Source: Alicyclobacillus sendaiensis NBRC 100866
GTDB lineage: Bacteria > Bacillota > Bacilli > Alicyclobacillales > Alicyclobacillaceae
Assembly: GCF_001552675.1 (NCBI RefSeq)
Contig: NZ_BCRQ01000021.1
Location: 1 to 40,609, forward strand
Length of the DNA: 40,609 nucleotides
Direction of reading: 5' to 3'
Below the pieces are notes generated by a model. It was not told the origin of the DNA. It was given only the letters and a program-made list of their open reading frames with translations, and ran no database searches. Numbering within the stretch: the stretch's first letter is position 1; each line of letters starts with the position of its first letter. The translations under genes were made by a program, and so were the position numbers. Of this stretch, positions 9,267-10,632 are shown piece by piece.

Positions 9267-9350
9267 CGCGCCGCCCTCCCCGTGAACGCCGCCGCGGCGG
9301 CACAACTCTTCCTCATTGTACTATACCCGGAAAGACGCCTGGAAGGACGG

Positions 9351-9380
9351 TTGCGGGATTCTCGGGGAATGTGCTAAGCT
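9351..9380 (+). promoter_or_regulatory. Sigma-A-type promoter of rpmB
   Basis: TTGCGG at 9351-9356, an 18-base spacer, and TAAGCT at 9375-9380 preceded by TGC, an extended -10. The match is moderate but the position, about 75 bases before the rpmB start, is right. Confidence 0.5.
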
Positions 9381-9454
9381 AGGCGAGGTTCGTCACGCTT
9401 TGGCCCATGCGTGAGGCTTCCTTTCCATACAATTCGAGGAATGGAGGTGCGCAA

Positions 9455-9646
9455 ATGGCTCGCCGTTGTGAAGTGTGTGGCCGGGGGCCGCAAGTCGGCA
9501 ACAAGATCAGCCACTCCCACATTCTGACGAAGCGGCGCTGGTATCCGAACCTGCAGACGGTGCGTGCCGAAGTGGACGGCTCGGTGAAGCGCATCCGCGT
9601 CTGCACCCGCTGCCTCAAGGCAGGCAAGGTGAAGCGCGCTATCTGA
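9455..9646 (+). CDS. rpmB: 50S ribosomal protein L28
   Basis: 63-residue large-subunit ribosomal protein. It begins [17 protein letters not shown] and keeps [15 protein letters not shown] and the C-terminal [11 protein letters not shown]. Two CxxC pairs, one at each end, mark it as the zinc-binding (C+) form of L28. Start ATG 9455 is preceded by GGAGGTG. It is the only plus-strand gene between recG and rqcH, with its own promoter and a strong terminator right after the stop, so it is probably monocistronic. Zinc-free L28 paralogues exist in some Bacillota under zinc control; none is visible here. Confidence 0.97.
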
Positions 9647-9650
9647 AACA

Positions 9651-9681
9651 AGAAAAAAGCACCTCTCTGGTGCTTTTTTCT
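9651..9681. terminator. Bidirectional intrinsic terminator between rpmB and spoVM
   Basis: 13-bp perfect stem AGAAAAAAGCACC / GGTGCTTTTTTCT with loop TCTCT. The A run on one arm and the T run on the other give a U tract in both directions, so it should end rpmB transcripts (plus) and spoVM transcripts (minus). Confidence 0.92.
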
Positions 9682-9729
9682 TTGTGCCCTTGTATGGACG
9701 TTTCACGCGAGTGCTCTTCTGATGTCGCC

Positions 9730-9813
9730 TCACTCGTCCTTCGTAAACGTGCTCAGCACAGCCTTCACAATTCCGCCCAGAAAGCGCGGCAATTTGATGG
9801 TGTAGACCTTCAC
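9730..9813 (-). CDS. spoVM: Stage V sporulation protein M (27-residue amphipathic peptide)
   Basis: Tiny sporulation protein that recognises the curved forespore membrane and anchors the SpoIVA coat platform. The frame reads MKVYTIKLPRF then LGGIVKAVLSTFTKDE. Compared with the 26-residue B. subtilis peptide as I recall it, 19 positions are identical, including P9 and the FLGGIV helix. The start is GTG 9813, with GAGGGGGG eight bases upstream; the stop is TGA at 9730-9732. Gene order supports it: in Bacillus spoVM lies between rpe and rpmB, as here, although thiN is absent. A bidirectional terminator follows, and a candidate sigma-E promoter is upstream at 9915-9943. Confidence 0.93.
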   Translation of the reverse strand: MKVYTIKLPRFLGGIVKAVLSTFTKDE

Positions 9814-9914
9814 GACCTCTACCCCCCTCGAACAACCTGCGCCATTGTCGGAGCGGAGTCTGACCCGCCGCAAGTCCCGCTCTGCCTCGAGGGCATAGGC
9901 GTCTGTCGCTAGCT

Positions 9915-9943
9915 ATGTATATGCGCCTTCTGTCGAAATGTGC
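9915..9943 (-). promoter_or_regulatory. Candidate sigma-E-type (mother-cell) promoter of spoVM
   Basis: Minus strand: GCACATT at 9937-9943, six of seven matches to the sigma-E -35 KMATATT, then 13 bases, then CATATACAT at 9915-9923, a partial match to the -10 CATACAHT. It lies about 100 bases before the spoVM start and after the rpe stop. spoVM is sigma-E dependent in B. subtilis. Confidence 0.45.
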
Positions 9944-9966
9944 CAGGACGAGCTCACCGATTCACG

Positions 9967-10632
9967 TTACTCGCGAAGCGCCGCGCGCAGCGCCTCGATG
10001 GCGAGGGCGCGATTGGGTTCGCCAAACACGGCCGATCCGGCGACAAACACATCGGCGCCCGCGTCTCGGGCCTGACGGATGGTGCCTGGGTGAATGCCGC
10101 CGTCCACCTGCACGTGCACGTCGTGTCGGCCGGCGTCGTCCAACATCCGCCGAACTTCCGCGACCTTGGCCAGCGTGCTCGGCACGAGCGACTGTCCGCC
10201 AAAGCCCGGATTTACCGTCATGACGAGGACGAGATCGACGTCGGCGAGAAGGTACGACAACCCATCCGGAGACGTCCCCGGATTGAGCGCGAGGCCCGCT
10301 CGTCTGCCGCACTCGCGAATCATCTGCAGCGCGCGATGGACGTGCGGGGTCGCTTCATAGTGCACGGTCAGCATGTCGGCGCCCGCGTCCACAAAGGCTT
10401 GGATCCATCGCTCGGGCGACTCCACCATCAGGTGCACATCGAACGTCGCTTGGAAGTGTTGCCTCAGCGCCTTCACCACGGGAGGACCGATGGTGAGATT
10501 GGGTACAAAATGGCCGTCCATCACATCGATGTGAATCCAGTCGCAACCAGCCCGGATGACTTCGTCGACCTCTTCGCGCAGCCTGGCGAAGTCCGACGAC
10601 AGAATGGAAGGAGCAATGACCGGCGTTTTCAT
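9967..10632 (-). CDS. rpe: Ribulose-phosphate 3-epimerase
   Basis: Interconverts ribulose 5-phosphate and xylulose 5-phosphate in the pentose phosphate pathway. It is a 221-residue TIM barrel with IAPSILSSDFARL at the start, metal-binding HIDVMDGHFVPN, VHLMVE, MTVNPGFGGQ and the phosphate-binding VDGGI and VAGSAVFG near the end. ATG 10632 shares one base with the rsgA stop (TGATG), so the two are probably translationally coupled. It is the last gene of the long housekeeping run starting at yicC. No terminator hairpin is evident directly after it. Confidence 0.97.
   Translation of the reverse strand: MKTPVIAPSILSSDFARLREEVDEVIRAGCDWIHIDVMDGHFVPNLTIGPPVVKALRQHFQATFDVHLMVESPERWIQAFVDAGADMLTVHYEATPHVHRALQMIRECGRRAGLALNPGTSPDGLSYLLADVDLVLVMTVNPGFGGQSLVPSTLAKVAEVRRMLDDAGRHDVHVQVDGGIHPGTIRQARDAGADVFVAGSAVFGEPNRALAIEALRAALRE

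Follow-up and report, generated by a model that had tools for sequence, protein, structure and literature searches.

A predicted spoVM gene of Alicyclobacillus sendaiensis, ordinary apart from a few local substitutions

Does the 27-codon frame between rpe and rpmB on a contig of Alicyclobacillus sendaiensis NBRC 100866 encode a genuine SpoVM, and are its GTG start and its odd residues peculiar to this gene or typical of the lineage? The question arises from an initial annotation of the window, by which we mean the whole stretch of 40,609 nucleotides that was analysed (NZ_BCRQ01000021.1). The annotation described the frame, its neighbours and a Shine-Dalgarno site eight bases upstream, and named no strand. 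All of this holds for the minus strand, which from 9813 to 9730 translates to VKVYTIKLPRFLGGIVKAVLSTFTKDE, followed by TGA; no SpoVM-like frame is found there on the plus strand. The features are as follows.

9730..9813, minus strand: spoVM, SpoVM basement-layer spore-coat peptide, 27 codons plus TGA, GTG start
9822..9829, minus strand: Shine-Dalgarno-like site GAGGGGGG (read 9829..9822), ending 8 bases before the spoVM GTG
9967..10632, minus strand: rpe, ribulose-phosphate 3-epimerase, upstream neighbour (PF00834, 1.8e-80)
9455..9646, plus strand: rpmB, ribosomal protein L28, convergent and downstream of spoVM (PF00830, 1.2e-23)

The genes rpe and spoVM run in the same direction and are separated by a 153-base gap. 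The start of rpmB is placed at 9455, where the protein begins with MARRCE; the ORF list starts this frame at 9407. RNA families and tRNAs were not reported anywhere in the window.

Membership in the SpoVM family

Profile searches place the peptide above the curated cut-offs of three SpoVM models, namely PF08183 (E = 1.3e-12, 47.9 bits, cut-off 20.6), NF011327 (57.1 bits, cut-off 55) and NF033436 (51.7 bits, cut-off 31), and the solved B. subtilis SpoVM structure (PDB 2mvh) was matched over 26 residues with E = 1.2e-08. The SpoVM pattern that the initial annotation had read in the peptide is thus confirmed, with a family match far above chance. A search of the own genome with the peptide returned a single match at E values up to 10. 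We predict with great confidence that 9730..9813 on the minus strand is a functional spoVM gene of the ordinary kind, from a spore former of the Alicyclobacillus type. Such genes are already known, and this one stands out only in a handful of minor local substitutions.

The concern that such short genes are often missed by automatic annotation has a historical basis. According to the available text of Galperin et al. 2012 (PMC3533761), spoVM was 'rarely recognized in genome annotation', although the authors identified it in all bacilli that they studied, a set that included A. acidocaldarius. The concern is less pressing now, since the peptide passes both NCBIfam SpoVM equivalog models, NF011327 and NF033436, which NCBI uses for naming proteins.

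PF08183 was above cut-off in 41/41 searched genomes of the family Alicyclobacillaceae, in 17 of the 18 genomes of the sister family (f2) and in 58/59 genomes of the order, the exception being G051, a 91% complete assembly in which a gap is the likely cause. All 17 sister-family peptides (L228-L244) carry R2 in place of K2 and have short, basic tails. A search of DNA for a spoVM pattern was uninformative across the phylum (8/398 genomes match, the window's own included) and found spoVM in 0/18 genomes of the sister family, which it missed because this family has R2 and the pattern demands a lysine codon. For comparison beyond these families, at least 120 wider loci were matched, a sample that is neither a census nor random, and a filter on length and a GG motif kept 108, at least three of which belong to Alicyclobacillus (L045, L047, L050). 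Among the 12 dropped loci, five look like genuine SpoVM (L048, L075, L102, L107 and L131, with GS or AS replacing GG, all starting with ATG), L123 is incomplete, and the remaining six look like chance matches.

The frame evolves as a coding sequence. Among the 40 distinct spoVM sequences, codons 2-26 vary at the first, second and third position in 12, 6 and 25 codons, respectively. Differences between distinct pairs over the same codons are 9397 synonymous and 3495 nonsynonymous, compared to a random expectation of 56/225 synonymous single changes; the pairs are not independent, and the direction is unambiguous. The constraint on spoVM is clear. K2, I6 and P9 are present in 41/41 family copies, located with a DNA pattern that itself allowed only K/R at position 2, I/V at 6 and proline at 9, and I15 is present in 38/41; the window peptide keeps all four. 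Roles in SpoVM are assigned to P9, I6, K2 and I15 in the accessible part of PMC5607322, and SpoVM is described, in what is available of PMC4307972, as an amphipathic helix that is mislocalised by P9A.

Start codon, product length and flanking signals

The GTG start is not exceptional in the family, whose spoVM genes start with TTG (26), GTG (12) or ATG (3). It could be argued that weak starts are selected in spoVM because they keep the peptide scarce. Non-ATG starts are indeed much more frequent in the family (38/41) than in the sister family (4 GTG and 13 ATG among 17) or in the wider sample, where the 108 copies among the matches listed have 94 ATG, 7 GTG and 7 TTG starts, at least three of these 14 non-ATG copies being from Alicyclobacillus. 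The adjoining rpmB keeps ATG in 28/29 loci (those recognised by the rpmB pattern among the 41 of the family), and the window's own rpe has ATG as well. Against the idea, these genomes use weak starts widely: GTG is the spoIVA start in 36/36 fetched loci, and in 25 of the 39 rpe genes recognised by pattern in the 41 family loci, no start codon other than TTG or GTG is found up to nine codons away from the conserved motif. Moreover, ribosome-binding sites accompany the weak spoVM starts, and the RNA structure around the start site, considered on the model of cmpA work (PMC13317604, available text), is not unusual (z = +0.98). As spoIVA and many rpe genes share them, weak starts appear to be a local habit rather than a property of spoVM alone, and we regard selection for scarcity as very doubtful.

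A different question is whether translation begins further upstream. The spoVM frame is open up to an in-frame TTG at 9873, which would give a SpoVM of 47 residues with an N-terminal extension. In 28/41 family loci, an ATG, GTG or TTG lies in frame between the short start and the preceding stop, and the 47-residue form remains above the cut-offs of PF08183 (41.3 against 20.6) and NF033436 (44.3 against 31). However, it falls under the NF011327 cut-off (51.2 against 55), an upstream in-frame start is absent in 13/41 family loci, and the upstream open stretch ranges from 0 to 119 codons. In addition, a Shine-Dalgarno-like site, counted as GGAGG, GAGGG or GGGGG at 4-20 bases before the start, precedes the short start in 41/41 family loci. 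The longer product is hardly credible in view of these findings, and we retain the 27-residue peptide.

A scan of 9300-10100 for consensus promoters and terminators reported none. Comparison of same-genus loci and folding revealed two further elements.

9913..9943, minus strand: promoter-like block GCACATTTCGACA-N4-GCGCATATACATAG, with the -10-like element CATATACAT at 9923..9915, from comparison of same-genus loci
9650..9681, no strand assigned: hairpin bordered on one side by an A-run and on the other by a T-run, from folding and same-genus alignment

The block, which can also be written GCACATTTCGACA-N4-GCG-N-ATATACATAG, lies about 130 bases upstream of spoVM. It resembles what we take to be the sigma-E consensus and is probably a mother-cell sigma-E-type promoter, a putative assignment made from motif likeness. 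At 15/15 same-genus loci, 25-26 of the 26 scored bases are conserved. Across the remaining 26 loci of the family, scores for the complete block are 14-20 of 26, a range overlapping the maxima of 15-19 obtained after shuffling of single bases. The -10-like pattern reaches further and is found 20-200 bases upstream of spoVM in 38/41 family loci (mean 0.37 and maximum 2 after shuffling in two-base blocks). It is also present before spoIVA in 23 of the 32 loci covered by this count, out of 36 fetched (shuffled mean 0.3, maximum 3). Its absence from 3/41 family and 17/17 sister-family spoVM loci and from 9/32 spoIVA loci, among them that of the window's own genome (GCATATATTG, one base off), limits the promoter reading to the lineage. 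In the available text of PMC5607322, spoVM is reported to be sigma-E controlled in C. difficile and SpoIIID-dependent in B. subtilis. Upstream of spoIVA (L162-L197), several family genomes have a long conserved leader after the -10-like element, with motifs such as GATTGTCAGTGGCTCGGGG and CTRCGCCGGTCAT; this is possibly a structured 5' leader.

The hairpin at 9650..9681 has fold z-scores of -5.1 (minus strand) and -6.0 (plus strand) and is present in all 15 rows of the same-genus alignment. It is likely a bidirectional terminator common to the convergent spoVM and rpmB genes.

Residue changes and the SpoIVA partner

The initial annotation had pointed to one extra C-terminal residue and to tail substitutions relative to B. 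subtilis SpoVM, and these exist: E27 is added, and M19V, G21S, S22T and R24T are changed. Its suggestion that the additional residue could matter finds no support, as a length of 27 is common and K2, I6, P9 and I15 are kept. Peptides of 27 residues make up 14/41 family copies, ending in S (7), E (6) or A (1), and 24/108 wider copies among the matches listed. The oddities thus mostly dissolve into features that are mostly typical of the lineage. The most unusual substitution is not in the tail at all, but is F3V, which the initial annotation did not name. Valine at position 3 is confined to 10/41 family copies that form one clade. It occurs in 0/17 sister-family peptides and in 0/108 wider peptides among the matches listed, even though the search pattern allowed it, and because of this absence from the wider peptides listed, behaviour known from B. 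subtilis may not transfer exactly.

SpoIVA, the partner protein, is encoded by an intact gene in the window's genome (TIGR02836, E = 2.4e-248). A match was found in 37/41 family genomes, this one included, and in none of the other four. One genome without a match (G035, 97% complete) has SpoVM, and an assembly gap is the likely cause. SpoIVA sequences were fetched for 36 of the 37 matching genomes, leaving out G031, where the gene is in two pieces. According to the available portion of PMC5607322, SpoVM I6 is linked to SpoIVA G486 in B. subtilis. Column 486 of our SpoIVA alignment, which holds glycine in 36/36 rows, was taken as the equivalent of this residue because both proteins have 492 residues, and not via an alignment to B. 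subtilis. The presumed partner residue would then be kept as well.

SpoVM has been claimed to interact with the protease FtsH in B. subtilis. One alternative reading is a lineage-modified SpoVM, in which F3V in a ten-genome clade, followed by G21S and E27 in a six-genome clade, altered SpoIVA binding, membrane affinity or turnover by FtsH, with faster change of SpoIVA alongside. Several observations speak for it. F3V maps to a single branch of the SpoIVA tree with support 99/94, covering 10/36 rows, S21 and E27 each occur in 6/41 family copies, and the net charge of the peptide is +3 here compared to +5 in B. subtilis. The six-genome clade (spoIVA loci L185, L188, L190, L194, L195 and L197), whose members all carry exactly the peptide encoded in the window, stands on the longest internal branch of the SpoIVA tree within the genus (0.12 changes per column), and this length is much less mirrored by Rpe. 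Likewise, SpoIVA of the six-genome clade lies at a distance of 0.113 from the F3 group and that of the other V3 rows at 0.055, compared to 0.375 and 0.328 for Rpe; the SpoIVA tree and distances carry a small error, since in the six rows of the own clade one N-terminal residue was lost on extraction and the next is written as M. We treat the long branch as a lead for co-adaptation, not as evidence for it.

Other observations speak against a modified SpoVM. F3V and G21S map to separate branches, and each is a single event that is indistinguishable from shared ancestry. SpoIVA has 21 columns specific to the six-genome clade (columns 1-2 come up in addition, as artefacts of the loss on extraction); nine of the 21 fall within 254-304, and a single one, 467, is close to G486. 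Only two SpoIVA columns (43 and 294) split V3 from F3 rows, no more than membership in a clade would give; with two columns and one event, the comparison of SpoIVA with V3 is uninformative about coevolution. Finally, K2, I6, P9 and I15 of SpoVM and G486 of SpoIVA are all kept. We therefore consider a lineage-modified SpoVM unlikely. A fuller version would have the SpoVM-SpoIVA basement layer retuned in one Alicyclobacillus clade: F3V came first, then G21S, an acidic residue added to the tail and accelerated SpoIVA change, and the outcome would be a natural variant whose membrane affinity, or whose contact to SpoIVA or FtsH, is altered. This seems to us quite improbable.

Expected role and significance

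By homology with SpoVM of B. subtilis, the mechanism is almost certainly the standard one, namely that of a curvature-sensing anchor for SpoIVA. The amphipathic peptide, kinked at Pro9, would settle on the outer membrane of the forespore, which is positively curved. There it would recruit the ATPase SpoIVA via the contact from I6 to G486, and this recruitment would start the coat and permit cortex formation.

The closest known system is SpoVM of B. subtilis (PF08183; NF011327/NF033436; PDB 2mvh). The two share a length of 26-27 residues, K2, I6, P9 and I15, the KLP-FLGGIV core, a SpoIVA gene in the genome and the location beside rpmB, a proximity that, in the available text of PMC5607322, is conserved in SpoVM-carrying organisms. 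They differ in that the peptide described here has F3V, K10R, R17K, M19V, G21S, S22T, R24T and the extra E27, and in that its gene starts with GTG. SpoVM of C. difficile belongs to the same family and is likewise encoded close to rpmB. Its gene, however, shares a transcript with an upstream gene encoding a 50-residue protein of unknown function, whereas the gene described here has its own conserved promoter-like block (comparison based on the available text of PMC5607322). Since C. difficile can, according to the same text, largely do without SpoVM, the effect of losing it in Alicyclobacillus cannot be assumed.

The first-stage reading of the 27-codon gene was correct. What is gained beyond it is modest, a set of SpoVM loci that documents natural variation in the family (41 loci) and the sister family (17 loci), together with a conserved promoter-like element. 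Within this set, the rare F3V substitution could inform work on the contact between SpoVM and SpoIVA.
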